Source of the DNA: an uncultured Eubacteriales bacterium
GTDB lineage: Bacteria; Bacillota; Clostridia; Oscillospirales; Ruminococcaceae
Direction: 5' to 3'
Assembly (NCBI GenBank): GCA_900319075.1
Contig: ONMZ01000001.1
Location: 307,126 to 371,125, forward strand
Length of the DNA stretch: 64,000 nt
Part shown: in pieces, positions 37,665 to 60,036 of the stretch
How positions within the stretch are numbered: position 1 is the stretch's first letter
Layout of the letters: every line of letters begins with the position of its first letter
Notes under the pieces: generated by a model
What the model was told of the DNA's origin: nothing
Database searches by the model: none
The model's input: only the letters and a program-made list of their open reading frames with translations
Position numbers and translations under genes: made by a program

Positions 37665-37696
37665 TTTTGCAGGAACAGTCATTAGCTCCTGCAAAA
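37665..37696 (+). promoter_or_regulatory. Leader hairpin next to the ribosome-binding site
   Basis: TTTTGCAGGA (37665-37674) and TCCTGCAAAA (37687-37696) form a perfect 10-bp stem with a 12-nt loop. The 3' arm runs straight into AAGGAG, so folding could mask or position the ribosome site of the ATPase gene. Confidence 0.6.
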
Positions 37697-37708
37697 AGGA
37701 GAAAAAAT

Positions 37709-38908
37709 ATGGACAACCTTGATAGACTGATCTTACGTTCAAAGACCCTTGTACTCTTTAAGGGGCTTCATAATAACAATGTGTTCAAAAGCTTTTTATG
37801 TGCAGCTGATTGCTGCATCAACGGAGAAAAACAACAGGCTGTGGAAAAATACTGCGAATTTATAAGTCTTCTTTATCAGCACACAGATGACCTTACCCAG
37901 CTTATTCTGAAGCTTGTGCTTGAGGACGAAAACCTGTTTATACTGAAAAAAGGGGAAAACCTGCCCACAGCAGGTGTGCTTGAAGAATGTCTTGCAAACG
38001 AGCTTCAGACTCTTCAGGAGCTCTCTCAGATACCCTGCACCGAGCTGACCGCAAGACTTGATACGGACATTTTTCTTCCCGAATATAAAACACACAAGGT
38101 GGATTTTTCACAGGTCTACGCAGACAGAGTTCACCACATCGGCGAAGTCGGTTATGGTATTTATTCACGCTACAATGTTTTTGTCATGGCAGACGGAAAG
38201 ATCAAGCCTGTGGAATATCCGGACCCGATAAGGCTTTCACAGCTTTCAAATTACCAGTCCGAGCGGGAAGAGGTAATTAAGAACACACTCGCACTGCTCA
38301 GCGGCAAACCTGCAAACAACGTGCTTTTGTACGGCGACTGCGGCACGGGAAAATCATCTACTGTCAAGGCTATTGCAAACGAGTATGCCTGCAAAGGTCT
38401 TAGGCTTATCGAACTTAAAAAGAAACAGCTCCACGAGATACCGTCAATAGTTGAGACTGTAAGCAAAAATCCGCTGAAATTCATTATTTTTATTGATGAT
38501 CTGTCATTTACCGAGGACGATAACGACTTTGCCGCTCTTAAAGCGATTCTCGAAGGCAGCGTTTCTTCAACGGCCTCAAATCTTGCGATCTATGCAACTT
38601 CAAACCGCAGACACCTTGTAAGGGAAACATTTTCCGCAAGACAGGGCGACGAAATCCATTTTAAAGACACCGTTCAGGAGCTGTTATCCCTTTCGGACCG
38701 CTTTGGTCTGACGGTTATTTTCCAGCGTCCCGACAAAAAAACATTTTTGAACGTAGTAAGCGATATTGCAAAGCAGTATGAGCTTGATGTGCCACAGGAG
38801 GAGCTTTTCAGGCAGGCGGAGGCTTATGCCCTTTCAAGAGGCGGACGTTCACCAAGAGTTGCAAAGCAATTCGTTGAGTATATGAAAGGATGTGGAGATA
38901 ATGCTTGA
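37709..38908 (+). CDS. DUF815-type AAA ATPase
   Basis: About 399 residues. The P-loop is YGDCGTGKSSTVKAIANEY near residue 205, followed by Walker B IIFIDDLSFTEDDNDF near 255 and ATSNRRHLVRETF (sensor region) near 293, with a C-terminal helical lid. The arrangement fits the DUF815 family, of unknown function. The first 190 residues are helical and lack motifs. The ATG at 37709 has AAGGAG 7 nt before it; an earlier in-frame start lies in the leader hairpin and is rejected. It overlaps the GNAT gene by 8 bp. Confidence 0.85.
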   Translation: MDNLDRLILRSKTLVLFKGLHNNNVFKSFLCAADCCINGEKQQAVEKYCEFISLLYQHTDDLTQLILKLVLEDENLFILKKGENLPTAGVLEECLANELQTLQELSQIPCTELTARLDTDIFLPEYKTHKVDFSQVYADRVHHIGEVGYGIYSRYNVFVMADGKIKPVEYPDPIRLSQLSNYQSEREEVIKNTLALLSGKPANNVLLYGDCGTGKSSTVKAIANEYACKGLRLIELKKKQLHEIPSIVETVSKNPLKFIIFIDDLSFTEDDNDFAALKAILEGSVSSTASNLAIYATSNRRHLVRETFSARQGDEIHFKDTVQELLSLSDRFGLTVIFQRPDKKTFLNVVSDIAKQYELDVPQEELFRQAEAYALSRGGRSPRVAKQFVEYMKGCGDNA

Positions 38909-39398
38909 GTTTGTAAAATGCGAGACCGACCATAAGCTGCGCCGTACTGCTGAAATGGCTAACGACATATGGCATGAGTGTTTTGAAGGGATCATCTCCG
39001 ACGAACAGATCGACTACATGGTGGACAATTTCCAATCATTTTCCGCAATTAAAAAGCAGATCGCAACACAGGGGTATGAATATTATAACTTTGTGCTTGA
39101 CGGCACAAGGATAGGCTATTTTGCCATTGCGCCCCAGGAGGATAATACGCTATTTTTATCAAAGCTTTATATGTACAAGGAATACCGAGGCAACGGTTAT
39201 GCTTCGGCGGCGTTTGAGTTTATTAAGGGCATTGCCCGTGACAGAGGGCTGAAAAGCGTCTGGCTCACTGTGAACAGGTACAACAGCAGCGCCATAAAAG
39301 TTTACCGTGCGTTCGGTATGAAGGTCATAAAAGATCAGCTTACAGACATAGGCAACGGCTTTGTAATGGACGATCACGTTTTCAGCATAGATGTATAA
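38901..39398 (+). CDS. GNAT-family N-acetyltransferase
   Basis: About 165 residues. The acetyl-CoA motif is YMYKEYRGNGYASAAFEFI near residue 91. The strand LKSVWLTVNRYNSSAIKVYR with its conserved Asn and Tyr follows near 118, and the VKxxFxFVMDDH-type end is seen. This is a compact GNAT close to those that act on small amines or on protein N-termini; the substrate is unknown. Its ATG overlaps the end of the DUF815 gene, so both come from one message. Confidence 0.88.
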   Translation: MLEFVKCETDHKLRRTAEMANDIWHECFEGIISDEQIDYMVDNFQSFSAIKKQIATQGYEYYNFVLDGTRIGYFAIAPQEDNTLFLSKLYMYKEYRGNGYASAAFEFIKGIARDRGLKSVWLTVNRYNSSAIKVYRAFGMKVIKDQLTDIGNGFVMDDHVFSIDV

Positions 39399-39422: not shown

Positions 39423-39468
39423 AAAAAAGCCGCAGGGGCAAATGAAATACCTCTGCGGCTCGTATTTT
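39423..39468. terminator. Strong bidirectional terminator
   Basis: GCCGCAGGGG (39429-39438) pairs with CCTCTGCGGC (39450-39459), one mismatch, 11-nt loop. T-tracts lie on both strands (plus TATTTTTA, minus TTTTTT). It separates the convergent GNAT and signal-peptidase locus genes. Confidence 0.88.
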
Positions 39469-39695
39469 TATTTGATAAGATCAAGCTTTTTCTGGGTGTT
39501 TATCATATGTTTTCTCACAGCATCGATCTCACCTGTGTACTTGTTGAACCACTCAACGTCTGCTTCCGAAGGTTCCTCCTGAAGGAGGATAGCCTGTACC
39601 AATGCCGACTGTGAACGTGAACGCTTACGCTCTATCTCCTCTATGGTCTTACGGCATTTAAGAATCTCTTTTTTATATTTTCTTTTTTCACTCAT
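39468..39695 (-). CDS. Small coiled-coil protein
   Basis: A 75-residue, highly charged helical protein (ILKCRKTIEEIERKRSRSQS, then EWFNKYTGEIDAVRKH) with no signal or membrane segment; family not recognised. GGAGGAAAAGT precedes the ATG. It is the last gene of the SipW/AAA locus, 13 bp after the previous stop, and runs into a strong terminator. A scaffold or regulatory role beside the coiled-coil ATPase partner is a guess from composition. Confidence 0.65.
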   Translation of the reverse strand: MSEKRKYKKEILKCRKTIEEIERKRSRSQSALVQAILLQEEPSEADVEWFNKYTGEIDAVRKHMINTQKKLDLIK

Positions 39696-39708
39696 CGTAC
39701 TTTTCCTC

Positions 39709-40143
39709 CTATTCGCCTTTTTTCTCTATGGAATCCACAACTTCTCTTATCTCGTCATAGCCCTTATCAAGGTTATCAACAATATCTTTAAGTCCCTGGT
39801 TTACAGCTTCCAGCCTTGTCTTCATCTGTTTTGGATATTTAACAAAGCAGTAATGAAGCTCATTTATAGCCTTTTGCCTTTCCGAATAATCATCTATCAG
39901 AAATACGAAAGACCTTGCGGATCCCAGATCTGATATGACCATATTATAGTGCAGATCGTAATCGATTTTCCTGCTGAAATAGGTGTCAAGCTCCTCGGTA
40001 GCATCTGCCAGGCTTTGCTTGTATTTTTCTCTGTAAGTCTTCTGAGCCTCTGCGGATTTATCCACATAAAGCCCGATAAAGACCAGCAAAGCAATAAGCA
40101 GGATGATCGCCCAGATTATTGCTGAGATCATCTTACGCTTCAT
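39709..40143 (-). CDS. Single-pass membrane protein with helical outside domain
   Basis: About 144 residues. An N-terminal anchor (ISAIIWAIILLIALLVFIGLYV) is followed by a helical domain with many Lys, Glu and Asp and heptad-like spacing (KQSLADATEELDTYFSRK, later LEAVNQGLKDIVDNLDKG). The family is not recognised. The ATG at 40143 overlaps the end of the signal peptidase gene by 11 bp and has AGGAAA upstream; a longer frame to 40197 would start deep inside that gene. It has the size and shape of a small accessory membrane subunit. Confidence 0.65.
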   Translation of the reverse strand: MKRKMISAIIWAIILLIALLVFIGLYVDKSAEAQKTYREKYKQSLADATEELDTYFSRKIDYDLHYNMVISDLGSARSFVFLIDDYSERQKAINELHYCFVKYPKQMKTRLEAVNQGLKDIVDNLDKGYDEIREVVDSIEKKGE

Positions 40144-40870
40144 TATCTTTTCCTGATTCACTATCCACCACTTCACTTTCGTTAAGCTTATCGGCATCAG
40201 CCTGTCGAAGCTTTTCTTTTTCTTTTTCGATAGCCTCTCTTATAAGCCTTTCTTTTTTCTCCTGTGCTGTTTGTTTATCTGATTTTTTCTCCTCCCGGGT
40301 GATCTGAGTCTGTTCATCATCACCCTCCTCGTCGGTACCTCTGACGATCTTTATCAGCGACCTTGCTTCGTATATACATATACCCACCGTAGGAAGTATA
40401 AACAGTATCATCAGCAGCTTCCTGCTTGACGCAAAAGACCCGATAAAGCGAAACAGCCATATCTTCCCCGAATATTTGCCCACCACCCTGTCCGGCTTTA
40501 CGGTATATTCGTCCGCTTTGGGGTTGGCATCGCCTTTTACGGTAAAGCTGCCGTCGGGGTTAATGGCGATAATCCTGTGAGAATTGGGCATATCCTTTAT
40601 CTGCGGATCGTCAGAGTAAAATGTTATAACATCTCCGACTTTAAGTGTATCTGTATCGACCTCTTTCACCAGCACATAGTCGCCAACATGAATAGATGGT
40701 TCCATACTTCCGGTTATTACCTTCATTACGCTGTATCCGCCGATCTTTGCCACCTTGCCTCGGATATTGCAAACAAAAACATACACCACGATACAGAACA
40801 TAGCTGCGATCAATGCGATAAGAAAGATCTTTACCGCAAGTTTCAGCCTACTTTTTATCATCTGTTTCAT
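40133..40870 (-). CDS. SipW/ER-type signal peptidase I (S26B)
   Basis: A 245-residue membrane peptidase. After an N-terminal span (VKIFLIALIAAMFCIVVYVF) come the catalytic serine in ITGSMEPSIHVGDYVLV near residue 55 and NSHRIIAI with His in place of the usual lysine near 97. That Ser/His pair defines the archaeal/ER-type group to which SipW belongs. VKGDANPKADEYTV and VVGKYSGKIWLF follow, then a second span near 150 and a cytoplasmic tail rich in Lys and Glu. SipW cleaves a small set of exported fibre proteins such as TasA. It overlaps the DUF2357-like gene before it by 23 bp. Confidence 0.88.
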   Translation of the reverse strand: MKQMIKSRLKLAVKIFLIALIAAMFCIVVYVFVCNIRGKVAKIGGYSVMKVITGSMEPSIHVGDYVLVKEVDTDTLKVGDVITFYSDDPQIKDMPNSHRIIAINPDGSFTVKGDANPKADEYTVKPDRVVGKYSGKIWLFRFIGSFASSRKLLMILFILPTVGICIYEARSLIKIVRGTDEEGDDEQTQITREEKKSDKQTAQEKKERLIREAIEKEKEKLRQADADKLNESEVVDSESGKDNEA

Positions 40871-42995
40871 TGACCCTTTCGTTCTTTAGTTTCCTGTTTT
40901 CACGCCAATGCTTGAATAGTCGTTTTATCTTGGTGAAAATGCTCACATGATACTCCTTGAACAAAGCCTTGATCCTTGCATTCTCTTCCTTTTCCTCCTG
41001 AGGAGTCATTACAACAAGCGACTTTCTGATCTTTTCCTTCTGAGCATCGGTAAGGGGCTTTTTCTTTTTCATCTTCCACTTTAAGTTCTTGACAGCCCTC
41101 TTCAGGTCATAGGGGAACATTGTCGCATACTTGTTGTAGTATATCTTCATCTGCATACGCTCATCCCGTTCTGCAGCGGTCTCCATAGGTCTTTCAAACC
41201 ACCGTTTCTTGGGATATTCCGCACGGTAATACTTAGGATCCACATCAGGAACATAAGGCCTGCGGAATATTACGCTGAACAATGTGATGAAGAATCGTCT
41301 TATCACGCACCACGGGCTTTTTGAATACTCCAGGTAAATTGTGCGGAAATCTCTGCTGCGGTAGATCTCTCTTTCCGCACGCAGACGCTCTGCACGGGCT
41401 TTCTCTCGTTTTTCCTTGGCAGCCTTCTCTGCCTTGATACGTTCTCTCTCGGCGATCTCCTCCGGGGTGAGGTTTGCCTCCTCCTCGGCGAGCCTTCTTG
41501 CTTCTTCCTCGGCAGCAAGTCTTTCCTGCTCGATTCTTTCAGCTGTAAGCTGTGCTCTTCGGAAGTTATCATATTCACGCTGCCGTCTTTCCTCTGCCTC
41601 CTGACGTTCTCTCTCGGCACGCTCGGCAGCCTCTTTTGCGAGTCTTTCTCTCTCCTCGGCTTCGGCTTTTTGTCTTTCTTCCCATTCACGCTTGAGACGC
41701 TCTGTCTCCTCACGCTGGATCCTTTCTCTCTCGGCACGTTCTTCCTCGGCTTTTTTGATAGCCTCACGCCGCAAAGCTTCCAGCCTGCGTTCTTCCGCCT
41801 CTGCCTTTTTCTTTTCTGCCTTTTCTCTCTCAATACGAGCGACCTCGGTACGTATCTGTTCAACACGTATATATTCCTTTTCAAGGGCAAAAACCTGGTC
41901 TATCTCGTTAAGAAGGGCGATATTCAGCTCTCCTGCCTCACCCTGATGGTCATAAATGCTCTCCCCCAGAGATTGCGGCTGAGCCATAACGTCATACTTG
42001 GACATATCGTCCTTATTGAACCTTTTGAGAAACTTAGGCAGAAACGCTTTAGGCTTCGCCGTTTTAAGATCATTCTTCTTATCGGCAGGTTTATGGGTAT
42101 ATGTACGGAACAGCAGGAAATTAAGTGCGATAAGGTTATAAAAATCCATCATATAATCCTCATCGAGCTTTTGTGCTGTATCCACCACATTTATCTCATA
42201 ACCGACCTTATCATATCCTTCGATAAACTGCCACAATGTAAGGCAGGCTTTAAGGTCAACGTTCTTCATAATTGCGTTGGTACGCATTACAGGGGGTCTT
42301 ATATAGACCGTACCCATCGTCTGGCAGAAAGTTGAGCCTTTGTAGCCCTCAATAGCTTTCTTTATATGCTCTACCCTTTCCCAGACTGTAAGACCGCTTT
42401 CGTTCACGGTCTCAAGGCTGTCGGTAGTCTCCAGCTTCAGGCTGACGCTCATCTGCTTACCGTTTTTATCGTCAAGGTCTGTATTATAGGAAAGGGAGAA
42501 CACCTCCTCATCCTTTGCGACTTCCTGGAGTTTTTCGTAACGCTTTATTATAAACACATAAAGCCTGTCCACAAGGGTATTGATGAACTTATTTTCATAA
42601 GTCATCATACTTTCCTCTTTATGGACATTAAGCACCTTGGAAGGTGTGATGGTATTTGTCACAGGGTCATAATCCTGTATAAGGTCGGTATGCTGAGCAA
42701 GGTGCTTTACCGACTCAACAGTTATTTTTCTTGAAAGGGCGATAGGAACGACCTCACCCACGTCTTCAATGGTGACTCTCGGGTTTCTCAGCACCGTATC
42801 AAGGTGCTTCATTCCCTGTTCTATTGCATCCACCCAGGAAACGTCCACAGATTTTTCCATTATTTTGCGGTTGACTGCAAAGGTATTTCTGCTGGACATT
42901 ATAAGGGAATGCATTGACTCAAAAAGGCTGTCATCTTCAAGTTCGCCCATTGTAGCGGTAAAGCTCTTATACCACTTATCGTAAAAATCGCTCAC
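40848..42995 (-). CDS. DUF2357-like coiled-coil protein, partner of the AAA ATPase
   Basis: A 715-residue protein. Residues 1-330 look like the DUF2357 domain that accompanies McrB-like ATPases: IPxxLSRKITVESVKHLAQH near 105 and TYENKFINTLVDRLYVFIIK near 150, the conserved ENxFI motif. Residues 385-560 are a long charged coiled coil, almost all Glu, Arg, Lys and Ala. The last 150 residues are basic with FFITLFSVIF and FxxYDLKRAVKNLKWKMKKK. The PD-(D/E)XK nuclease domain that often follows DUF2357 is not evident. A GTG start is used, with GGAGGGG about 5 nt upstream. The DUF2357 call is by motif resemblance. Confidence 0.6.
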   Translation of the reverse strand: MSDFYDKWYKSFTATMGELEDDSLFESMHSLIMSSRNTFAVNRKIMEKSVDVSWVDAIEQGMKHLDTVLRNPRVTIEDVGEVVPIALSRKITVESVKHLAQHTDLIQDYDPVTNTITPSKVLNVHKEESMMTYENKFINTLVDRLYVFIIKRYEKLQEVAKDEEVFSLSYNTDLDDKNGKQMSVSLKLETTDSLETVNESGLTVWERVEHIKKAIEGYKGSTFCQTMGTVYIRPPVMRTNAIMKNVDLKACLTLWQFIEGYDKVGYEINVVDTAQKLDEDYMMDFYNLIALNFLLFRTYTHKPADKKNDLKTAKPKAFLPKFLKRFNKDDMSKYDVMAQPQSLGESIYDHQGEAGELNIALLNEIDQVFALEKEYIRVEQIRTEVARIEREKAEKKKAEAEERRLEALRREAIKKAEEERAERERIQREETERLKREWEERQKAEAEERERLAKEAAERAERERQEAEERRQREYDNFRRAQLTAERIEQERLAAEEEARRLAEEEANLTPEEIAERERIKAEKAAKEKREKARAERLRAEREIYRSRDFRTIYLEYSKSPWCVIRRFFITLFSVIFRRPYVPDVDPKYYRAEYPKKRWFERPMETAAERDERMQMKIYYNKYATMFPYDLKRAVKNLKWKMKKKKPLTDAQKEKIRKSLVVMTPQEEKEENARIKALFKEYHVSIFTKIKRLFKHWRENRKLKNERVNETDDKK

Positions 42996-43022
42996 ACATT
43001 CCCCTCCTTTTTATTGGATTTT

Positions 43023-43064
43023 AAAAATGACCTGACTTACCGTTGAAGCTAAGCAGGTCATTTT
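43023..43064 (-). terminator. Hairpin between the AAA ATPase and its partner gene
   Basis: An 11-bp stem AAAATGACCTG/CAGGTCATTTT with a bulge and an inner CTTA/TAAG pair. On the minus strand it is followed by TTTTTAAAA. It sits in the middle of the locus, so it probably lowers the downstream genes' expression rather than ending the operon. Confidence 0.75.
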
Positions 43065-43084
43065 GTTGCAGCAATATCAGCACA

Positions 43085-44659
43085 TCAATACAGCTTCTGC
43101 AAACGCTCAAGGTATGCAATAGATTCCTTCATACTATTGCTGCCAAAGGTTTTTCTCAGATATGTACAAAGATCTCTCAGCTCGTCACGCAGCATTGAAA
43201 GGTTCAGGGATTCAAACTTTCTGAATATCTTTGTAGCCATTACATAATCTATACCGTCGAGCTCATCTCCGCCGCAGGCAACATATACCGGAACAAACAG
43301 ACCCATCTGCTTGATAATACGGTTACCGAAAGCAACTCTGAGCTTTTCGATTACCCACAGATCAAGATGCTGTATCTTCTTCAGGTTCTCCTCACTTATA
43401 GGATATTTCTTGAAAGCTTCCTCGAAAAGCTCGTTAAGGTGTTCATATCCCAGTGTAAGAGGCGGTGTATCCGGTGCATCAAAAGCAATACCCTTTGCAT
43501 CAAGGTTGATAGGCTGAGCACGGTCATAAACCTTATCGGAAATAGCAAATGTAGAGTCGTCGTTATTTGCCGTACCGATATACCACACATTCTGCGGTAT
43601 CTTTATCATACCCTTATCCAGATTCTCCGGGTCGGTGCTCCAGACATTAGGAACAAGGTCCAGCTTCCACTCGTCTGCGTTAGGCATTTCCAGAATGGAC
43701 AGCATTTCTGCGAAGTAATACTCCACACGGGCTATGTTCATCTCATCCAGCAGGATAAGGTTAACGTCATTGTTAAAGCTGGATGAATATATCCTTTTGA
43801 GCACTTCTGTCTCGTTGAAGTTCTTAGTAAATTCGTTAAAGAATCCGAAAAGCTCTGTTCTGTCACGCCATGAAGGCTGTACAGAGGCGATAGTAGTATC
43901 AACGCCCAGGAACTTACCGAATGAGTACGGCAAAGATGTTTTACCTGTACCGGAAATACCCTGGAGGATGATAAGCTTGGTTGAAGCCATACCTGCTATA
44001 AACAGCCGTATAGTCTTAATGTCGTAGAAAAGGTGCATTCTGGAGCAGGCGAAGTTTCTGTAATCCTCACAGATCTGCTCAAGGGAAACGGTGTTATCAT
44101 ACTCCGGCGGAGTATATGTCTTGTAGAAATTATCCACCTCAAGCAATTTGGAGAAACGCTTGACAGTTGTGATGACCACGCCGTCCTGTGTCTGCTCCTC
44201 GCCCTGAGCCTCTCCCTCCTGACCATCACCAAGAGAGAGCGTACCGCCTGCTGTGCCGCCCCCAAGTGCCAGTGAGCCGCCGCCCATCTGAGCCACTTTC
44301 ATAGCCATGATCTCGTCTTTTTCCTTGGTCATTTTAAGTACCTGGCGCTGAAGCACGCCTATTTCCTCAAGCAGATCCTCATCGCTTACAAGGGAATGTC
44401 TGAATCGGATATACTTTCTGACAGCAAGGATTATCATAAATATAATAAGTGCAAAGATAGCAACAACAAGGATTATGGACAAGATAGCAAGTATCCACTC
44501 CAGAACGCCGAAGCTTTCGGAGTGAGCCTTGAATATGGTGATATAATTCTTGATATTGAATATCTGCTTTATTCCTTCCCAAAATCCTTTAAAAATACTT
44601 GCGAAACCTTTAAGAATTTCAGAAATAAAAACAAAGAACCATTCCAAAAAGTTACTCAT
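43085..44659 (-). CDS. Membrane-anchored McrB-like AAA+ ATPase
   Basis: A 524-residue protein. A hydrophobic span near residues 55-85 (WILAILSIILVVAIFALIIF) is followed by a linker and a C-terminal AAA+ module. Walker A is LQGISGTGKTSLPYSFGKFL near residue 235. Walker B is LILLDEMNIARVEYYFAEML near 300. The sensor/arginine region has VWYIGTANNDDSTFAISDKV near 365, typical of McrB, whose GTPase/AAA motif reads similar blocks. McrB normally has a DNA-binding head; here a membrane anchor stands in its place, so it may act at the membrane. Its partner is the DUF2357-like protein after the hairpin. Function unknown. Confidence 0.8.
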   Translation of the reverse strand: MSNFLEWFFVFISEILKGFASIFKGFWEGIKQIFNIKNYITIFKAHSESFGVLEWILAILSIILVVAIFALIIFMIILAVRKYIRFRHSLVSDEDLLEEIGVLQRQVLKMTKEKDEIMAMKVAQMGGGSLALGGGTAGGTLSLGDGQEGEAQGEEQTQDGVVITTVKRFSKLLEVDNFYKTYTPPEYDNTVSLEQICEDYRNFACSRMHLFYDIKTIRLFIAGMASTKLIILQGISGTGKTSLPYSFGKFLGVDTTIASVQPSWRDRTELFGFFNEFTKNFNETEVLKRIYSSSFNNDVNLILLDEMNIARVEYYFAEMLSILEMPNADEWKLDLVPNVWSTDPENLDKGMIKIPQNVWYIGTANNDDSTFAISDKVYDRAQPINLDAKGIAFDAPDTPPLTLGYEHLNELFEEAFKKYPISEENLKKIQHLDLWVIEKLRVAFGNRIIKQMGLFVPVYVACGGDELDGIDYVMATKIFRKFESLNLSMLRDELRDLCTYLRKTFGSNSMKESIAYLERLQKLY

Positions 44660-44700
44660 GTTTTCCTTGTTTTCCTTTCTATAAGATTTGGACAGCCTTA

Positions 44701-45459
44701 TTACTCAGCGCTCTTTTCCTTTTCCGCATCAGTTTCTGCTGTCTGCTGCTGTGCCTGCTCGGAGCTTTCCTCGCTGCCGGACTGTACAGCTTCAGTCTTC
44801 TGCTGTTTTTCACCGGCACTTTCCTGCTGAGCTTTTTTCTGCTCTGCAAGATACTCCTCGATGGCTCTTTTCTTGATCTCTTCCTCGTCAAGCTCAGGTG
44901 TCTTATCTCCCTGACGCATCTGTATAACTACCATTATAAGCTTAAACAGTTCAAACAGGAAGAATATCGCCATAGGTATAAGGATACATACCAAAAATCC
45001 TGTCTTGGTTTTAAGGAATTTCATAAGCCGTCCCAGCACAGGCATCCTGCTGCCTGTCCATTTTCCGATTATCTTGCTGGGATACACGATATATGTATCG
45101 TTCTGATCGTTATTATCACCCTTAGTGATAAAGCCTTTGGTGCCGTTATCGTCCTTTATCTCCACAATTCGGTGGGTATTGATAACGTTCTGTCCCTCAA
45201 CTATCTCGTTGGTCCAAAAGGAAATAACGTCATCCACTTTAAGCTCGTTTATGTCGTCTATCTCCTTGGCGATGATAAGGTCGCCTTTTTTGAAGGTAGG
45301 CTCCATTGAGTCCGACTCAACAGTCATCGGCATACGTCCGAAAAGGCTCGGAACACCGTTGTTCTTGTCTGAAGTGAATACCATTACGGTAATGAGCAGA
45401 GCAAAGATCAGAAGTATCCATGCCAGAACGCTCAGAACGATTTTAATTGTCTTTTTCAT
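44701..45459 (-). CDS. SipW/ER-type signal peptidase I (S26B)
   Basis: A 252-residue second signal peptidase of the His type. The N-terminal span is KIVLSVLAWILLIFALLITV. The serine sits in VESDSMEPTFKKGDLIIAKE near residue 51, NTHRIVEIKDDNGTKGFITK supplies His near 96, and GDNNDQNDTYIVYPSKIIGK follows. A second span is near 150 and a Glu/Gln-rich tail (residues 200-252) is likely cytoplasmic. It lies 22 bp after the TasA-like membrane protein gene, its likely substrate or partner. Confidence 0.88.
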   Translation of the reverse strand: MKKTIKIVLSVLAWILLIFALLITVMVFTSDKNNGVPSLFGRMPMTVESDSMEPTFKKGDLIIAKEIDDINELKVDDVISFWTNEIVEGQNVINTHRIVEIKDDNGTKGFITKGDNNDQNDTYIVYPSKIIGKWTGSRMPVLGRLMKFLKTKTGFLVCILIPMAIFFLFELFKLIMVVIQMRQGDKTPELDEEEIKKRAIEEYLAEQKKAQQESAGEKQQKTEAVQSGSEESSEQAQQQTAETDAEKEKSAE

Positions 45460-45481
45460 GATAAATCTTACCCCTTATAAC

Positions 45482-46306
45482 TTATGTATTCTCCACGATC
45501 CTGAAATCCATCTGCATTTTGATAACTCCCCCGATTATATCATCAATACAATCAGGATCGTTTCCCTCAAGCCAGATAACAACAGTGTATTTATTAGTAG
45601 CACCGGGCTCAAAATCCGAGACCTTTGTGTGCATTACCTGTGCAGAGGTAAGAAATTCCTTATCGCAATCGCTTTCTTTGCCGTTTCCGGTGGATTTGGT
45701 CTTTCCGTAGACCTCTTTTTCACCGTTGGTGTAAAGTGCCACACGGATCGCCTCATCGACATTTTTCGTGACATTTTGTATTGTAAGGTCGCCCTCGTAG
45801 GTTATGGTGTCCTTACCGGAATTATGTACATAAAATGTATAAGCGATATAGTTGCGCCCGTTATGGTTGCCGTTGACCTTATCAATATTGTCCGGAAGAT
45901 CGTTTCCGCTGATGTTTGTCATATCGTAGACAATATCTGCGGTAAGGACCGAGACGGTCTTGTCAAATTCAGGCGTCTCCGACAGGGAAAGTCCCTGATT
46001 GACCATGTCGTACTTGTTGACCTTTATGGTAAAGCTTCCGTACTTATTATAAAAATAAGATATTGCATAGCCTATGGCGATAAAGCCGATAAGCGCAACG
46101 GTTATAAGTCCGGTGACCCGCATCAGAACGGTATACTTTTTGACTTCTTTTGCTGTACGTCTTATGTGCAAAGCATCACGAAGAGCGGTTTCTTTATCTT
46201 TATCCTTTGCCTTTGCGCTTTCCTTTACGGCAGCTTCCGTAGATTCGTCAAGCTCTTTGTTTTCAGCCTCTGTCTGAGCTGCCTTTTGTTTATCCTTTTT
46301 GCTCAT
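45482..46306 (-). CDS. TasA/camelysin-like membrane-anchored protein
   Basis: About 274 residues. A charged cytoplasmic part of some 60 residues is followed by a membrane span near residue 68-88 (VTGLITVALIGFIAIGYAISY). The rest is a strand-rich outside domain with NISGNDLP and NGRNYIAYTFYVHNSGKD, then GATNKYTVVIWLEGNDPDCI and the end IKMQMDFRIVENT. The last block (VVIWLEGNDP) is common in SipW-linked camelysin/TasA-type proteins. It lacks a cleavable signal and probably stays anchored. The ATG at 46306 or a TTG at 46312 could start; AAAGGAGGT precedes both. It heads the SipW-AAA gene series. Confidence 0.68.
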   Translation of the reverse strand: MSKKDKQKAAQTEAENKELDESTEAAVKESAKAKDKDKETALRDALHIRRTAKEVKKYTVLMRVTGLITVALIGFIAIGYAISYFYNKYGSFTIKVNKYDMVNQGLSLSETPEFDKTVSVLTADIVYDMTNISGNDLPDNIDKVNGNHNGRNYIAYTFYVHNSGKDTITYEGDLTIQNVTKNVDEAIRVALYTNGEKEVYGKTKSTGNGKESDCDKEFLTSAQVMHTKVSDFEPGATNKYTVVIWLEGNDPDCIDDIIGGVIKMQMDFRIVENT

Positions 46307-46389
46307 AAGCAAGTATACCTCCTTTCAGCATTATTGGTATTTATTTTAGGATCAGATACTATATATAATGCAAGCTGACCGTGCAGACG

Positions 46390-47169
46390 TCAGGTGGACT
46401 CCTGAACGGACTGCTCATATGTTCTTGGTCTGATGTACTTTCGCTGCATCCAGTCCCCCGTGTAGTTCCCCACACACAGATTGCAGCCGAGAGAAGCGAT
46501 CTTATCTCCCTGGTCGGCGTTTTGCACCTCGGTAGCTATTGGTATGCAGTCAATGGAAATAATATAATCAATAGACGAGCGCACCCATTTTTCGTGGTTA
46601 TCGCCCCCCATTGCCTCGTTAGTATATATTCCGCTCATCATAACGAAATCCACCGGATAGTCCGAAAGGAGCATAGCCGGGCTGTCATCGCCGCCAAAGG
46701 AATTGAGCATAAACCTGTAGCCCTCTCTTTGGAGCAGGGTCATCGTTTTTACGGCAGTTCCGTCCTTTTCGCCGTACAAAGCCGAATTAAGCTCAAAGCA
46801 CACATGATCCGGGTGGATATGAAATGCGCTTGATAGCTCCTGCAATCCCTTTACGCAGTCGTCACGCTTTAAAAAGCTGACCGGGATAGGGATAGAGATA
46901 AAGCGGTAATCTATATCTCTTTTTTTAAAATTTTCAATAGTGTCGCTAAGATGATAAAACTCCAGCGGCAAAAACTCAGCGGCACGGTCGGGATAAGCTT
47001 CAAGCACCGGCAGATATTCGCCGGGGAAGATCACACCTTTTGAGGGGCTGTTCATACGGAAGGTGGACTGGTAAGCCAGGAACTCTCCCGAAAGGGCGTT
47101 GCCGATAGGGCGGAAATACTGTTCAAGCGCACGAAGACCGCCCACAGTCGCAGTATTTTTTACCTTCAA
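46390..47169 (-). CDS. Degenerate EAL-domain protein (likely inactive)
   Basis: About 260 residues of the EAL fold of c-di-GMP phosphodiesterases, with the catalytic set worn away. The EAL position reads YQST, ELTE is replaced by FELNSAL, DDFGxGYSS by LNSFGGDDSPAMLL, and KID by MMSGIY. So it should be an inactive c-di-GMP binder or a protein scaffold. The TTG at 47169 is used as start: the promoter at 47231-47259 puts transcription from about 47224, so longer frames to 47271 would start before the promoter. GGGGTG is 6 nt before it. It is divergent from the TasA-like gene. Confidence 0.7.
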   Translation of the reverse strand: MKVKNTATVGGLRALEQYFRPIGNALSGEFLAYQSTFRMNSPSKGVIFPGEYLPVLEAYPDRAAEFLPLEFYHLSDTIENFKKRDIDYRFISIPIPVSFLKRDDCVKGLQELSSAFHIHPDHVCFELNSALYGEKDGTAVKTMTLLQREGYRFMLNSFGGDDSPAMLLSDYPVDFVMMSGIYTNEAMGGDNHEKWVRSSIDYIISIDCIPIATEVQNADQGDKIASLGCNLCVGNYTGDWMQRKYIRPRTYEQSVQEST

Positions 47170-47230
47170 GCCACTCACCCCGCTTATTATAAATGTGCAT
47201 AAGTTAAAAAAGTATAATTTATTCGTAAAT

Positions 47231-47259
47231 ATTATACTTGATTTTGTGCTATTTGTCAA
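47231..47259 (-). promoter_or_regulatory. Consensus promoter of the EAL-like gene
   Basis: On the minus strand, -35 TTGACA (47259-47254), 17 bp, -10 TATAAT (47236-47231): a full consensus match. It defines the start of the EAL-like protein by ruling out upstream codons. Confidence 0.9.
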
Positions 47260-47447
47260 GCAAAATGGCATTATTTATCATCAAAAAGCATGGTTTTTAA
47301 AAATAATAAGACAAGTTTTTTAAACAAATCAAACATATGCAACAATGACCGAAATCGTTTTATATACGTTTTGCACAAAACGAGGGAAATGCTGGGGATA
47401 TATTTTACAAATTTGTTTTCTGAAAGAAACAAAATACCAAAATTCTA
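47260..47447. other. Divergent intergenic stretch, no gene seen
   Basis: AT-rich sequence between the promoters of the EAL-like and TasA-like genes. A GTTTT/AAAAC pair near 47375-47405 is the only structure noticed. Confidence 0.6.
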
Positions 47448-47476
47448 TTGACAAAACCTCACAAAGAATGTATACT
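47448..47476 (+). promoter_or_regulatory. Strong promoter of the TasA-like gene
   Basis: -35 TTGACA (47448-47453), 17 bp, -10 TATACT (47471-47476). It is followed by a structured leader of about 115 nt before the ATG at 47598. Confidence 0.88.
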
Positions 47477-47482
47477 TTAAGA

Positions 47483-47570
47483 CAAGGAAACGGAAATAAC
47501 TATTCACATTAGGGTTTCCTGAAAGAAGTTAACCGGTACCTCGCTCGGCTATGGCGGAAGGTACAAAAAC
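47483..47570 (+). promoter_or_regulatory. Structured leader RNA of unknown class
   Basis: Two stems can be read: AGGAAAC (47485-47491) with GTTTCCT (47514-47520), and GTACCT (47536-47541) with AGGTAC (47559-47564) enclosing CGC/GCG. No T-tract follows, so it is not an attenuator. It does not match the c-di-GMP, TPP, SAM, cobalamin or purine riboswitch consensus that I know. Confidence 0.5.
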
Positions 47571-47597
47571 AAAATTCTTTTGAAAGGGGAATTTATT

Positions 47598-48413
47598 ATG
47601 ACAAATACAAAGAAGAAAAACGGCAATAAGAGAAAACTGTTAGGCGCAGTTGGAATGCTCACAGTTTCCGCAGCAATGCTTGTTTCGTCAACATTCGCTT
47701 GGTTCTCGATGAACAAGAAGGTTACAGCTCAGACAATGACTATTTCAGCTAAGTCGGATAGCACATTCCTTTTGATCAGCAAAACAAACACAGCCGCAGC
47801 AGACATTCAGGCCGAAAAGAAAACATTAGTTAATGATTTGGCTGATACTGCTGACAAAACTACTTTGATACCCTCTACTCCGGCAGTATCAGATGATTTG
47901 ACAACTTATGCTACTCCGTTGACCGGTGCTTCTGCTATAACAAATCAAGCAACAGCAGCTGTACAGTCAAACTGGTGGACTGCAAACAGCAGCGATCCTG
48001 CAAACGCAACAACCAATACTATTAACGTAACTAAGCTTACAGCTGATAATTTCAGCGAATATGTAATCAAGAAGACTGTTTACCTGACAGTTGCTAAGGG
48101 TGCAAATAATGCAACTAACCTCTCAGTTACACCTACATTCACCAAGAAGGAAGGTACTGCAACAGATTACAGTGGTGTTAAAGTTCTTGTAGCTACAAGT
48201 GATGGCGGATTTGCAACACTCACCAAGGATAGCACAAAGACCGATATCAAGGGCTCTAATACAGCATTGACAGACACAACAGTTCTTACTGTTGACCTCT
48301 ACATCTACTATGATGGTAAGGACAGCACAGTTTATTCTAACAACTATGATAAGCTTGCAGGTGCAGATGTAACCTTCGATTTTGAAGTTGAGCCGATAGT
48401 TCCTACAACCTAA
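47598..48413 (+). CDS. TasA-like exported protein with SipW-type signal peptide
   Basis: About 271 residues. The N-terminus (KRKLLGAVGMLTVSAAMLVS, then STFAWFSMNKKVTAQTM) matches the SipW-cognate signal: a hydrophobic core ending in an AW-F junction like TasA's, followed by a V-A-T stretch. The mature part is rich in Thr, Ala, Ser and Asp with few charged or aromatic residues, strand-like, without cysteine, and ends YDKLAGADVTFDFEVEPIVP. This suits a secreted fibre subunit cleaved by one of the two His-type signal peptidases encoded 2-7 kb away. AAAGGGG is 8 nt before the ATG; a start six codons earlier lies on that site. A strong promoter and terminator suggest high expression. Confidence 0.8.
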   Translation: MTNTKKKNGNKRKLLGAVGMLTVSAAMLVSSTFAWFSMNKKVTAQTMTISAKSDSTFLLISKTNTAAADIQAEKKTLVNDLADTADKTTLIPSTPAVSDDLTTYATPLTGASAITNQATAAVQSNWWTANSSDPANATTNTINVTKLTADNFSEYVIKKTVYLTVAKGANNATNLSVTPTFTKKEGTATDYSGVKVLVATSDGGFATLTKDSTKTDIKGSNTALTDTTVLTVDLYIYYDGKDSTVYSNNYDKLAGADVTFDFEVEPIVPTT

Positions 48414-52590: not shown

Positions 52591-54138
52591 TTACTTGTTA
52601 AAATGCTTTTTCTCATCCAGATATTTTTTTGCATCCTTGTAGAAACTCCAGATCATAATTATCATTATTATTCCGATAGGGAACGCTGAAATAATGCTGA
52701 CAGACTGGATATTATTCATTGAGCTTTCCGAGAAAACAAGTGCTATCGGAAGCACGATAAGAAGTATACACCAAAGAAGTTCGACCGGCTTGCTTGGGTG
52801 TTCGTCCTCGCCAAGTTTTTTATAGCTGTAACAAGCTGCCGTGTATGCGATCGAGTCAAAGGACGTTGCATAAAACAGTATCATTGTTATAAGCACAAGA
52901 ACAAGTATAAACGTTGAAGCAGGCATTGTATCTATGATATTTAGTATAAGTCCGTAAAGGTCGCCGCTTTCATTATACTGTTCAATAAAGTTATGTGCAC
53001 CGGCAGTTTGCAGTCCAAGAGAGTAGTTACCAAGTATCACAAAGCTTACGATGGTGGAACCAACTCCGAAAATATATCCTCCCAGTATGGTCTGACGGAT
53101 AGTTCTGCCCCTTGAAATATTGCCTATGAAAAACGGAGCAGCTATGCACCATACCATCCAATAAGCCCAGTAGTATATTGTCCAGTCCTGCGGGAAGTTG
53201 CTTTTTCTTGTGGGATCAGCGAATGTAGACAGGCCAATAAAATTCTGGACCATTTTGCCAAGGGACTGGAAACCATTTTCAATAATATACCGTCCCTGCC
53301 CGCCGATAAGCAGAACAAGAATAAGCATACCAAAGAAAAGAAAAATACACGCCTTTGCAAGATAACTAATGCCTTTGAAACCGTGCAGGACTGCATATGT
53401 ATAAACAGCACAGGTCACAAGCAGAATAATAATCGTTATGGTCGTACGGCTAAGAGAAACACCGAAAAGCTTACCGATTATACTTGCCATAAGCGGTGTG
53501 GCAACACTAAATGTAGTTGCCGTTCCGGCAAGCAATGCAAACAGTGCAAAAAGGTCGATCACCCTGCCAACAATGCCATCTGAGTGCTTTCCGAGAACAG
53601 GGCGGCAAGCTTCCGAATAGCGCTGGCGGTTTCTTTTTCTGACGTGAAGCATAAATCCGAAGGCAACAGCAAGCACAAGGTAGAAAGCCCATGGGATAAA
53701 GCTCCAATGGAACAGTGGAAATACGCCTGCCCATTCGTCTACCGAACCGAGCTCCTCAATATGAGGGTTTGTGGCATACATTACCCATTCTGAGAAAGAA
53801 TAAAACAAAATGTCTGCCGCAAGTCCGCAGGTGAACATCATACTTCCCCAAGCGAAAAATGAATACTTCGGCTTTTCATCAGGCTCTCCAAGAACTATAT
53901 TTCCGTATTTGGAAAAAGCCAGCAAAACGGATACGATCAATACCCCAAGTCCAATAACAAGGTAGTATATCCCCATTGTGTCCCCAAAGAAAAACCTGAC
54001 TTTTCCTATAACTTTGTTCGAGCCATCCGGAAATACAAAAAGCAATCCCGCAAGCCCCATTATGATTATAAACGGTGCAAGGGTCACCAGCCAGTCGATG
54101 CGCCCTTTGTTTTTTTGTTCTTTTACCTTCTCACTCAT
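52591..54138 (-). CDS. BCCT-family choline/betaine/carnitine transporter
   Basis: A 515-residue transporter with about 12 membrane segments. It opens with WLVTLAPFIIIMGLAGLLFV, and the family's tryptophan-rich region is IYYWAYWMVWCIAAPFFIGN near residue 310, followed by ISRGRTIRQTILGGYIFG. The conserved WSFIPWAFYLVLAVAFGFML lies near 145. BCCT carriers take up quaternary ammonium compounds with Na+ or H+. The gene is 18 bp after the LicC-like cytidylyltransferase in one operon, so choline is the most likely substrate. It ends at the terminator shared with folA. Confidence 0.92.
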   Translation of the reverse strand: MSEKVKEQKNKGRIDWLVTLAPFIIIMGLAGLLFVFPDGSNKVIGKVRFFFGDTMGIYYLVIGLGVLIVSVLLAFSKYGNIVLGEPDEKPKYSFFAWGSMMFTCGLAADILFYSFSEWVMYATNPHIEELGSVDEWAGVFPLFHWSFIPWAFYLVLAVAFGFMLHVRKRNRQRYSEACRPVLGKHSDGIVGRVIDLFALFALLAGTATTFSVATPLMASIIGKLFGVSLSRTTITIIILLVTCAVYTYAVLHGFKGISYLAKACIFLFFGMLILVLLIGGQGRYIIENGFQSLGKMVQNFIGLSTFADPTRKSNFPQDWTIYYWAYWMVWCIAAPFFIGNISRGRTIRQTILGGYIFGVGSTIVSFVILGNYSLGLQTAGAHNFIEQYNESGDLYGLILNIIDTMPASTFILVLVLITMILFYATSFDSIAYTAACYSYKKLGEDEHPSKPVELLWCILLIVLPIALVFSESSMNNIQSVSIISAFPIGIIMIIMIWSFYKDAKKYLDEKKHFNK

Positions 54139-54156
54139 TTTTACTCTTCCTCCATA

Positions 54157-54867
54157 TCAGACTTTATAACTATTATCCAGTTTTTGCAATTCTTCAAAGC
54201 TGTCTACTTCGATAATATCTTCCCTTTTCATTTCAAAGATACCAAGATCAAACTTGTCAGGATAGCAAAACATTGCAACATCATCCCAGTAGATCTGACG
54301 GTTGCCGTTTTCAAATTCGGTCTTTATATATCCTTTCAGTCTGGATCCGTCCTCGGAAGTCCATCGTGAAATGCTGTAAAGCTGCCAACCCTTCTCACCA
54401 CCGGTTCGTGAACAGCTTATGACCTTATTTTCATGAACATCCATCAACCATTCATCCGTATGCTCGTCTGTCCACACAGCGTTATACCCGGACTTTTCAA
54501 AATATGGTGACAAAATTCTGTCGTTATATATTATCTGGTCTGCGTCGAGAATAATACTTTCGCCTAAATAATCCCTTGCGACATATAGTGATGAGATATT
54601 ATTGCAGCTTTCATAATACGGATTATCTATCAGCTTTACGCCGGGATACTCTTTTAAAAGCACTTCAAACTTTTCTTTAAGATACCCGACAACAATGTAT
54701 ATCTCATTTATCCCGTTATTATTCAGCCCACGAATGACGGTATCTATCATTCTTACGCCGTTGACTCTGACAAGGGGTTTGGGAGTATCGGCAGTGAGCG
54801 GAAGCATTCGCTCCCCCTTTCCTGCCGCCATAATTATCGCTCTTTTTACAATATGCATTTTACTCAT
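54157..54867 (-). CDS. LicC-like choline-phosphate cytidylyltransferase
   Basis: About 236 residues of the sugar/choline nucleotidyltransferase fold. The nucleotide loop is RAIIMAAGKGERMLPLTADT near residue 8, with TPKPLVRVNGVRMIDTVI next. The LIDNPYYESCNNISSLYVAR stretch near 70 is typical of LicC (YxxxNNxxSLY). Then comes ILDADQIIYNDRIL near 100, with the metal Asp. LicC converts phosphocholine and CTP to CDP-choline for cell-surface polymers. The ATG at 54867 overlaps the upstream stop by 8 bp and has GGAGG 9 nt before it. Confidence 0.85.
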   Translation of the reverse strand: MSKMHIVKRAIIMAAGKGERMLPLTADTPKPLVRVNGVRMIDTVIRGLNNNGINEIYIVVGYLKEKFEVLLKEYPGVKLIDNPYYESCNNISSLYVARDYLGESIILDADQIIYNDRILSPYFEKSGYNAVWTDEHTDEWLMDVHENKVISCSRTGGEKGWQLYSISRWTSEDGSRLKGYIKTEFENGNRQIYWDDVAMFCYPDKFDLGIFEMKREDIIEVDSFEELQKLDNSYKV

Positions 54868-56635
54868 TTCCACCGACCTCCGCACCTTGCAGCTCGTTCA
54901 TGGCGTAATGATAATAATCCTTGGCAAACCTGTACTGGCGCAGGCTGTATTCCCCGAACTCTACTCCCAGATTTCGTTTGAATTCACACCAGTTCGACCA
55001 GAGCAATCCACACATAGAAATATATGCATATATCTTTGCTCTCGTTTTCTTATCGCACTTATTCTCAAAATAAATATCTATAAGCCTGTCCACCTGGTTT
55101 TTATCATACATACTGTAAATACAAAACATTGCTATATCCACATGGGGATCCTGCATACCCGAATACTCCCAGTCTGTAAGCTGTAGCTTTTCAGTGCTGC
55201 CGTCATTATAAAACAGGAAATTATCAGGCACAGCATCTATATGGGTCAGGCACATTTCTTTTTCTGCGCTGTCGATAAACTTTTTCAAGTTCAGCACATT
55301 AGCCTTTGTTTGTTTGTAGTCCTTATATACTGACGGGTTATCCTTCCAAAGTTTTTCGTAATACTCGATCTGACCCCAGATATCAAAGCTGTGATCCACC
55401 TTGAGTTTCATATTATGAAATTCTCTGAGCTTACTCATTGATCGTTTCAGGTCATTTTCATTGTCAGGGTCACATACTCTTACCCCGTTAAGGTATTTAG
55501 TTATCTTATATCCTGTATGCGGATCTATAAATACCGGGTCATCGCATAGTCCTAAGCCGCTTATTGTTCTGAAAACTTCCGCTTCCTGTGCACGGTTTAT
55601 AAGTTGATCGGTCCCCTCTCCGGGGATCCGCATGATGTACTTGTCTCCGTTAACAGAAAAAAGGAAAGAACGGTTAGTCATACCTTTTTTCAGAACCGTT
55701 ATATCCACAATATCATCAGTCGAAACCTTGAACACATCTCCTATAACATCAAGAGCATCGGACTTTAAGTGGTTGGATTCACCGTCAAGCTCACGCAGCT
55801 GCTCATAAGTGTTTATCTCTACAGCATCTGCAGAATGTACCACCTTGGCTGCAATGGTCATCTTATCCTTTTCATACAGTGCGATCTCCCAGAAATCCTC
55901 ATCATGTTCCCCACTTTCTGAGGCGCTTTTGATCTTCTCACGAATGATCTTAGCATCCTCCTCAAGCAAGTAAGCAATTCCAAGCATCTGATTTCCGCCT
56001 GAGTACTTGCTGACCTTAACAAGTTCCATTTTCCTGTTGACCCTGACATCCGATTCATTATCGACCATATCACTTACCATGTACCAGGAATACATTTCCT
56101 TTTGGTGGAATGGGTTTTTATCACACCATATATCCGATGGCACTATGTACGTATTAGTGATCCGGTCAGCTACAAGTGCAAGGGAACTGAGATTGTTTTT
56201 TGAAGCATAATCCGGATTGACCACAAGTTTTACCCCGTATTCATCGATCAGATAATCAAATTTCTCTTTCATGAATCCCACAACAATTGTTATATCCCTT
56301 ATCCCGGCTTTGTGGAGCTGTTTGATAGTGCGTTCTATCAACGGCTCGCCATTGACCTCAAGCATTGCTTTGGGCGAAGTCAGATTTATGGGTACCATTC
56401 TCATTCCAAAACCTGCTGCAAGTATGATCGCATTTTTAGGAGCTTTCATCTCAAGCTCTCTGATTGCTTTAGATGTAAGACAAACAGTGTCATCAATGTA
56501 GCCCTGATCTTTCAAGGATTTTAAAGAACGATTGACTACACCCAGGCTATGTCCTGATACTTCCGACAATACCCGCTGATTAATGAAAGGTTCTATAAGA
56601 AGTGTTCTTAAAACGTCAAACTCCTGCTTGTTCAT
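54860..56635 (-). CDS. HTH-cytidylyltransferase-choline kinase fusion (LicC/LicA-like)
   Basis: A 591-residue protein with three parts. Residues 1-65 form a winged helix (EFDVLRTLLIEPFINQRVLS, then SLGVVNRSLKSLKDQGYIDD). Residues 70-285 are a LicC-like nucleotidyltransferase (IILAAGFGMRMVPINL, TSPKAMLEVNGEPLIERTI, and NPDYASKNNLSSLALVADRI). Residues 305-591 are a choline/ethanolamine kinase of the LicA/APH fold (GMTNRSFLFSVNGDKYIMRI near 325, the catalytic CLTHIDAVPDNFLFYND near 465 and TDWEYSGMQDPHVDIAMFCI after it). This makes CDP-choline in one polypeptide, with a DNA-binding head that could sense choline. An ATG at 56635 or a TTG at 56641 could start. First gene of the choline operon. Confidence 0.85.
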   Translation of the reverse strand: MNKQEFDVLRTLLIEPFINQRVLSEVSGHSLGVVNRSLKSLKDQGYIDDTVCLTSKAIRELEMKAPKNAIILAAGFGMRMVPINLTSPKAMLEVNGEPLIERTIKQLHKAGIRDITIVVGFMKEKFDYLIDEYGVKLVVNPDYASKNNLSSLALVADRITNTYIVPSDIWCDKNPFHQKEMYSWYMVSDMVDNESDVRVNRKMELVKVSKYSGGNQMLGIAYLLEEDAKIIREKIKSASESGEHDEDFWEIALYEKDKMTIAAKVVHSADAVEINTYEQLRELDGESNHLKSDALDVIGDVFKVSTDDIVDITVLKKGMTNRSFLFSVNGDKYIMRIPGEGTDQLINRAQEAEVFRTISGLGLCDDPVFIDPHTGYKITKYLNGVRVCDPDNENDLKRSMSKLREFHNMKLKVDHSFDIWGQIEYYEKLWKDNPSVYKDYKQTKANVLNLKKFIDSAEKEMCLTHIDAVPDNFLFYNDGSTEKLQLTDWEYSGMQDPHVDIAMFCIYSMYDKNQVDRLIDIYFENKCDKKTRAKIYAYISMCGLLWSNWCEFKRNLGVEFGEYSLRQYRFAKDYYHYAMNELQGAEVGGNE

Positions 56636-56694
56636 GAACAAAACAACTCCTTTTAATATGAACAGTGAAGCCTAAAAAACCCAAATACATACAT

Positions 56695-56723
56695 ATATTA
56701 ACACATATCACTAAAAAAGTCAA
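56695..56723 (-). promoter_or_regulatory. Promoter of the choline operon
   Basis: On the minus strand, -35 TTGACT (56723-56718), 17 bp, -10 TAATAT (56700-56695), about 55 bp before the fusion gene. Confidence 0.75.
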
Positions 56724-57514: not shown

Positions 57515-57533
57515 AACTTAATCCTCCAATATG

Positions 57534-57827: not shown

Positions 57828-57854
57828 TTATGCTCTTACTAAAGTTTATACATT

Positions 57855-57880: not shown

Positions 57881-57888
57881 ATCAGCAT

Positions 57889-57917: not shown

Positions 57918-57924
57918 AATGATA

Positions 57925-59817: not shown

Positions 59818-59848
59818 AACTGACCACATCCTTATACATATTTTGTTC

Positions 59849-60029: not shown

Positions 60030-60036
60030 AATGATA

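Follow-up and report, generated by a model that had tools for sequence, protein, structure and literature searches.

Organisation of the locus

The window analysed here is a stretch of 64,000 nucleotides from contig ONMZ01000001.1 of an uncultured Eubacteriales bacterium (Ruminococcaceae), and the system in question is a block of eight genes lying in line on its minus strand, from 47271 down to 39468. In this order the block encodes an EAL-domain protein, the TasA-like precursor tasX, the SipW-type signal peptidase SipA, a McrB-like AAA+ ATPase, a DUF2357 protein, a second SipW-type signal peptidase SipB and the small proteins sm162 and sm75. Genes are taken as the listed open reading frames (ORFs), the starts of which are uncertain; the gaps between the eight, from the EAL gene to sm75, are 77, 22, 41, 89, −23, −65 and 13 bases. 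The block is a conserved unit. A scan of a genome collection yielded 157 relatives, the best 80 of which are referred to as the named loci, and all eight genes were found together in each of the 49 named loci that extend far enough to either side, which is more than chance would give.

The genes that an earlier note on this DNA had claimed for the locus, namely those for the AAA+ ATPase, the DUF2357 protein, two SipW-type peptidases (of family S26 by profile), two TasA-like proteins and two small proteins, were all recovered. The EAL gene (46390-47271) had gone unmentioned there, though it lies within the same region.

Conservation in the genus

A SipW-type gene was present in 80 of the 80 named loci and tasX in 76, while relatives of both small proteins were found in 64 of the 80 and in all 49 with enough flank; counts such as these over related species are not independent. 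Median pairwise identity was 78% for the AAA+ ATPase and 77% for sm75, the most conserved products, and 42% for SipB, the least conserved. The sm75 gene (39468-39695) encodes a small charged protein, and sm162 (39709-40197, with a start probably inside the listed ORF) one whose N-terminal span is followed by a helical outer part. The latter matched ZorA models of PADLOC weakly, with E-values of 0.006 and 0.017.

Presence and absence of the genes coincided. Twenty-four of 28 further genomes of the genus had the AAA+ gene; tasX occurred in exactly these 24 and a DUF2357 gene in 23 of them, the one lacking it being a draft of an estimated 76% completeness. The four genomes without the AAA+ gene, two of which are 99% complete, were also without tasX and DUF2357. 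One genome of the same family (G033) has tasX without an AAA+ gene of the window's clade (clade A, below), on a contig that ends 0.2 kb behind SipA, and is thus neither a clear exception nor support. A chance neighbourhood was rejected on the grounds of the unit kept in 49 of 49 loci, the joint presence and absence, and the lack of a SipW-type gene in the control loci described below.

Distribution in the order, class and phylum

A class-wide scan of 393 genomes gave 31 with a match at 1e-20 (21 below 1e-100 and 10 weak). In a scan of 398 genomes of the phylum 52 matched; besides the window's own genome and G161, the other 50 matches were weak (2e-36 or worse). Comparison was made between 15 clade-A loci from 13 class-level genomes, eight clade-A loci of the order that each lie on a single contig, six other loci with a strong match, termed sister-type, and 20 McrB-like controls with a weak match, comprising all 10 weak matches of the class and 10 of the 50 from the phylum. 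Genome G492, whose strong AAA+ match is divided between contig ends, enters no count. In another genome, G147, which stands outside the 23 order- and class-level loci, the locus falls on two contigs (L125 and L126) and includes the peptidases, AAA+ ATPase, DUF2357 protein, sm75 and a large EAL gene.

SipW-type genes accompanied the clade-A pair without exception, in 15 of 15 loci of the class and 8 of 8 of the order, and were found in none of the six sister-type loci and none of the 20 controls. EAL-like genes (5 of 15 and 7 of 8), tasX-like genes (11 of 15 and 4 of 8) and sm75 (2 of 15 and 5 of 8) were likewise lacking from the sister-type and control loci. These counts indicate that the peptidases and the DUF2357 protein form the constant part of the block, the small proteins and the EAL protein being variable outside the genus. 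The link drawn in the earlier note between the AAA+/DUF2357 pair and SipW export genes is thereby strongly supported (80 of 80 named loci and 23 of 23 order- and class-level clade-A loci), and homologues of the pair in clade A do not mostly occur without such genes, which the note would have taken as refutation; a sister clade with twin membrane AAA+ genes lacks them, in six of six loci.

A tree of 35 AAA+ domains placed the 18 clade-A rows on one branch (Shimodaira-Hasegawa-like approximate likelihood ratio test, SH-aLRT, 98) and ten rows from twin-AAA+ loci on a sister branch (SH-aLRT 97), with six McrB-like rows as outgroup; the tree was made by a quick method, contains long branches and takes in the window and 17 of the 23 order- and class-level loci. 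Members of clade A come from 16 families of one class, counted as group codes. In the sister clade (L122 and L199-L202), twin membrane McrB-like AAA+ genes flank a DUF2357 gene and no SipW-type gene is present. Giant proteins with an N-terminal span come next in these loci, that of L201 having a transglutaminase core. The sixth sister-type locus, L203 of genome G374, has a strong AAA+ match on a long branch and neither a DUF2357 nor a SipW-type gene. The loci L201 and L202 adjoin ribosomal-protein genes, as judged by eye.

The AAA+ ATPase and its DUF2357 partner

The AAA+ protein (43085-44659) has one hydrophobic membrane span at residues ~57-80. The description of this protein as McrB-like held on comparison with McrBC: when a profile of 12 homologues was searched against the PDB, McrB chains were the sole matches (best 1.4e-5), and hhalign aligned the protein with the soluble McrB-like protein of control locus L206 at 99.6% over 285 columns. 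All 12 aligned rows share Walker A (GISGTGKT), Walker B (LDEMNIAR) and the short NxD motif (NNDD) without variation, NNDD being aligned to the NTAD of McrB. The N-terminal part consists of the span and a coil-like stretch, in which neither an FtsB/DivIC family nor a DNA-specificity domain family was matched at E-values up to 1.

The DUF2357 protein (40848-42995) is of the type of the McrC N-terminal domain and matches PF09823 over the gathering score, at 9.5e-7 across residues 58-164. The same family was matched by 16 of the 20 relatives scanned, and in a profile comparison the core aligned with the McrC-like neighbour of the soluble protein in L206 at 93.6% over 81 columns. Residues 380-560 are 78% E, K, R, A or Q with one Pro, and the protein is judged, by composition and alignment only, to contain a long coiled coil. 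A search of the whole protein against the PDB returned coil matches only, and the core alone gave two chance matches (E 0.31). A PD-(D/E)XK nuclease in the window's DUF2357 protein was rejected, there being no family match by profile. The earlier note had seen no nuclease domain, and sequence profiles agree, with no nuclease family found in any of the 20 DUF2357 proteins scanned. With ends at 365, 384, 434 and 443 residues, four distant members could hardly accommodate a nuclease.

Signal peptidases, fusion and a common tail motif

SipA (44701-45459) and SipB (40133-40870) score 108.3 and 96.5 bits against TIGR02228, both over its cut-off of 51.85 bits; the cut-off of 190 bits of the narrow Bacillus SipW model NF046067 was not reached by either (123.7 and 86.2 bits). 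Both are of the Ser-His type. S51, H96 and the aspartate D115 of the following GD are kept in 78 of 79 rows of SipA, the remaining row having a gap, and S55, H98 and D114 in 66 of 66 rows of SipB.

The gene for SipB overlaps that for the DUF2357 protein by 23 bases in the window. SipB lies inside the DUF2357 reading frame in 30 of the 65 named loci in which both parts could be placed, and is split from it in 35. The fused frames measure 973-1083 residues in 28 of the 30, those of L037 and L100 running to the contig end, and they occur in isolates of Ruminococcus albus (8, AR67 and KH2T6) and R. flavefaciens (Y1, YAD2003, MA2007, MC2020 and YRD2003). On the AAA+ tree the fused or split state changed at least seven times. 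An internal start within the fused frame might also yield free SipB.

The C-terminal tail of SipA, which is expected to be cytoplasmic, keeps the motif [DE]EExIKxxAIEEYLxxQ. Its core pattern gave 110 matches in the 80 named loci, of which 65 were in SipA ORFs, 25 in SipB, 19 in DUF2357 ORFs (many of these being the tails of fused SipB) and one elsewhere, and a single match in the 20 controls. The DUF2357 protein of L114 and L120 likewise has the motif close to its end. Outside the genus, four of the 15 class-level loci and two of the eight order-level loci have a SipA with the pattern, most class-level SipA being missed; when tails were read by eye, variants were seen in seven of the eight order-level SipA. 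The motif may represent a docking helix common to SipA, SipB and the DUF2357 protein.

TasA-like proteins and YAWF-type signals

The N-terminus of the precursor tasX (45482-46312) is of cytoplasmic type; the protein has a single span and, possibly, a cleavage site of the form A-x-S/YFY. Within the motif Y-A-x-[SA]-Y-F-Y, the S/A and YFY columns are kept in 74 of 77 rows, the other three being gapped. Signal-peptide cleavage follows the -3,-1 rule, by which the motif would fit a predicted site after the Ser or Ala. A second, divergent protein, tasY, is encoded beside the block on the plus strand (47580-48413); its translation reads STFAWF at the signal, and it is a probable substrate.

The earlier note had described both as TasA/camelysin-like. 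This stands as far as the SipW-type signals, which both carry, and the architecture are concerned; membership of PF12389 or another TasA family does not follow by profile, and the term TasA-like is used here in the former sense. The family profiles of tasX and tasY aligned with each other at 96% in hhalign, and with camelysin-family proteins at 70% (weak) for tasY and 2% for tasX. The best other family for tasY was DUF4307 (E 0.15), with nothing else at E-values up to 1, and at 1e-10 PF12389 matched nothing in the window's genome. An approach through solved structures was also abandoned, alignment A3 giving one chance match in the PDB (E 0.21). The model of the SipW-cognate signal, TIGR04088, had no match in the window's genome at E-values up to 10 and was dropped as a counter of SipW substrates; a control search of 14 genomes gave matches in eight, over the cut-off in two.

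A pattern for YAWF-type signals, consisting of a hydrophobic core followed by A-W/Y/F-F/L/W, was counted. Per 10 kb it occurred 0.95 times in class-level clade-A loci, 0.70 in order-level loci and 0.65 in those genus loci that measure 9 kb or more, against 0.10 in sister-type loci and 0.09 in controls, clade A being about ten times denser than the latter; the counts are rough, since so simple a pattern has false hits (one in L184, and the three control hits look unlike such signals). YAWF-type or similar proteins 1441-1956 residues long are encoded ahead of the block in L114, L119, L120, L121 and L125; the ORF in this position in L115 is cut by the edge of the locus and measures at least 2656 residues. 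Two adjacent YAWF-type reading frames lie away from the block on contig C27 of the window's genome (L225, 1384-2577 and 2588-3187) and are possible further substrates.

EAL proteins and cyclic di-GMP riboswitches

The EAL-domain protein of the block matches PF00563 at 6.7e-23, and its true start is probably inside the listed ORF. FimX is a receptor of cyclic di-GMP (c-di-GMP) for pili, and the Gln at the EAL site of the genus protein, with a later Arg, recalls it. Large EAL proteins follow the block in other families and keep the EAL-site residues in eight of eight cases; a GGDEF domain accompanies the EAL domain in that of L119, the only one scanned. With seven matches to the large EAL protein in other parts of the window's genome, c-di-GMP signalling is likely to be present there.

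A c-di-GMP-I riboswitch was identified with Rfam on the block strand directly before the first block gene in L118, L187, L114, L120 and L125, and in L198 before tasX, behind two EAL genes. Six of the 22 order- and class-level genomes (nine and 13, respectively) therefore have such a riboswitch before the block. The six loci represent four families, because L114, L120 and L125 are from three species of one genus. Riboswitches of this kind leading the block are new here. With Rfam none was found in the seven of 20 controls examined or in the six sister-type loci. A model, R1, was built from the six and run on 72 sources (the window, 27 genus, 24 order- and class-level and 20 control sources); together with a letter pattern it gave a c-di-GMP-I-like riboswitch in control L214 (347-431, plus strand), ~7.4 kb from the McrB-like gene. 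Matches to Gut-1 RNA were also noted, in L120 within the block region (8908-8988, 9081-9153 and 11185-11264) and in L118 (585-660).

Relation to described systems

McrBC motors are known as restriction machines. The block has in common with McrBC type IV restriction an AAA+ core and a DUF2357 core; unlike it, the block has a span replacing the DNA-reading domain, no nuclease family and export genes as neighbours. The twin membrane AAA+/DUF2357 loci of the sister clade encode related McrB-like AAA+ and DUF2357 proteins but have no SipW-type gene.

In sipW-tapA-tasA of Bacillus subtilis a dedicated SipW-type peptidase stands beside fibre-forming proteins; unlike TasA of that species, tasX and tasY do not match PF12389. 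In Clostridium perfringens a self-polymerising protein needs the SipW-type peptidase of sipW-bsaA in order to be placed outside the cell (PMC7395162). The likeness of these two systems to the block lies in the dedicated SipW-type peptidase adjoining fibre-forming or, in the block, putatively fibre-forming proteins. No AAA+/DUF2357 pair is named in the sipW-bsaABCRSD operon as described there (PMC7395162).

The earlier note knew of no described system with this make-up. That view has to be given up, as Bell et al. (2024) had named the class CoCoPALM, in one paragraph and with details deferred (PMC11090510); they describe DUF2357 as the N-terminal domain of McrC. The block has in common with that description an NxD McrB homologue, a McrC-type partner with a coiled coil, and associated signal peptidase genes. 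The N-terminal span and coil-like stretch of its AAA+ protein may correspond to the FtsB-like part that is fused to the AAA+ domain in CoCoPALM. Absent from the same paragraph are a TasA-like partner, a fusion of DUF2357 with SipW, an EAL gene, a riboswitch and the small proteins, and the words TasA, c-di-GMP, riboswitch, biofilm, SipW and EAL do not occur in the main text of the paper (PMC11090510). In searches of the open-licence PMC literature, this paper and its preprint (PMC10542128) were the only ones found to concern the class, and a later description may exist elsewhere.

Proposed function and alternatives

The block is probably a system of the CoCoPALM class, dedicated in the Clostridia to exporting and assembling surface proteins, in which a nuclease-free membrane motor derived from McrBC serves SipW-type peptidases. 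In favour of this are the eight-gene unit, the presence of a SipW-type gene in all 23 order- and class-level clade-A loci as against none of the six sister-type loci and none of the 20 controls, the repeated fusion and the joint presence and absence of the genes, as well as the Ser and His kept in the peptidases, the density of YAWF-type signals, the riboswitch in 6 of 22 genomes and the common tail motif. The riboswitch, the fusion of DUF2357 with SipW and the joint presence and absence also lend more support to a part for the AAA+ ATPase in the making of surface fibres, which the earlier note had proposed and which stays a prediction.

In such a system the AAA+ ring would sit at the inner face of the membrane with the DUF2357 protein as its activator. 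The latter would hold SipB, through its coil or by fusion, with the active site of SipB facing out, and SipA, sm162 and sm75 would complete the machine in the genus. The AAA+ ATPase, DUF2357 protein and peptidases may thus form one complex. Precursors with YAWF-type signals would cross the membrane, by an assumed Sec route, and then be cut by SipA or SipB; the substrates would include tasX within the block, neighbours of the tasY type and, in other families, giant YAWF surface proteins. The cut proteins would build fibres containing tasX or layers of giant adhesins, fibres being a plausible product of the block. Hydrolysis of nucleoside triphosphate (NTP) might move, extract or release precursors or time the peptidases, that is, the NTPase would time cleavage, pull out signal peptides or free anchored subunits. 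Control by c-di-GMP would be exerted through the riboswitch in those families that have it, and the EAL proteins of the block may contribute as well; a role for c-di-GMP may extend to the window's own genus. The narrower proposal, that a ring tied to a peptidase through a McrC-type activator uses NTP to drive or time cleavage, extraction or fibre assembly under c-di-GMP, is put forward tentatively.

Several results weigh against a surface-export role under such control. The window's EAL protein is, to judge from its residues, catalytically degenerate, the EAL glutamate being Gln in 67 of 73 rows of the genus protein and the metal-site residues being lost, and at class level EAL-like genes are found in only 5 of the 15 loci. 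With Rfam no c-di-GMP-I riboswitch was found in the window or in the 11 of 80 genus loci examined, and R1 gave nothing convincing in the window and 27 of the 80, the best being a weak match in L063 (E 0.036). Neither tasX nor tasY matched PF12389 or another TasA family at E-values up to 1. Finally, the AAA+ protein matches the PADLOC candidate defence model PDC-M26A at 1.1e-38, the best stretch being the AAA core at residues 208-325.

This last match, with the kinship to McrBC, is what speaks for anti-phage defence, in which a membrane variant of McrBC would sense infection and act via membrane or surface proteins. The AAA+ gene is nevertheless nearly constant in the genus (24 of 28 genomes) and highly conserved (median 78% pairwise), no nuclease family was found in 20 of 20 DUF2357 partners, export genes are the constant neighbours, and among the five window proteins scanned with PADLOC the DUF2357, tasX and EAL proteins had no match, so that a defence function is very unlikely. 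A role in membrane quality control deserves more weight, although it too is considered unlikely. AAA+ machines often extract membrane proteins, and a pair that removes cleaved signal peptides or misfolded precursors, without driving export or assembly, would fit both the common gene unit and the DUF2357-SipB fusion; the eight-gene block, however, has no protease gene besides the two signal peptidases, and the c-di-GMP-I riboswitch points to regulated surface building and not to housekeeping. It is also conceivable that the pair shares no more than a transcript with the export genes and has a task of its own, as operons can hold unrelated genes. Retention of the pair across 16 family codes of one class, its repeated fusion with a peptidase and the joint absence of AAA+, tasX and DUF2357 make this highly improbable.

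If the block does export and assemble surface proteins, its nuclease-free membrane clade of McrBC is a restriction-type motor re-used for cell-surface building, and the data suggest such re-use of a defence-type motor. An NTP-coupled ring-peptidase would, if real, be an energy-driven signal-peptidase machine of an undescribed kind. Many gut bacteria of the Ruminococcus group keep the block as one unit, and in the rumen species R. albus and R. flavefaciens it would be a surface system that is widespread, has yet to be characterised and may play a part in attachment. Its function can be tested directly by way of the fusion and the riboswitch.

Neighbouring genes

Just behind the block, at 37667-39398 on the plus strand, lie genes for a DUF815 AAA ATPase and a GNAT-type acetyltransferase, relatives of which also adjoin the block in L031, L034 and L035. 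Further away, the minus-strand region 52591-62880 encodes two large proteins (57925-59877 and 60037-62880) that combine leucine-rich repeats with choline-binding repeats, and near them lie a BCCT transporter gene and a choline-kinase/nucleotidyltransferase gene; the products of this region may make a choline-decorated surface.

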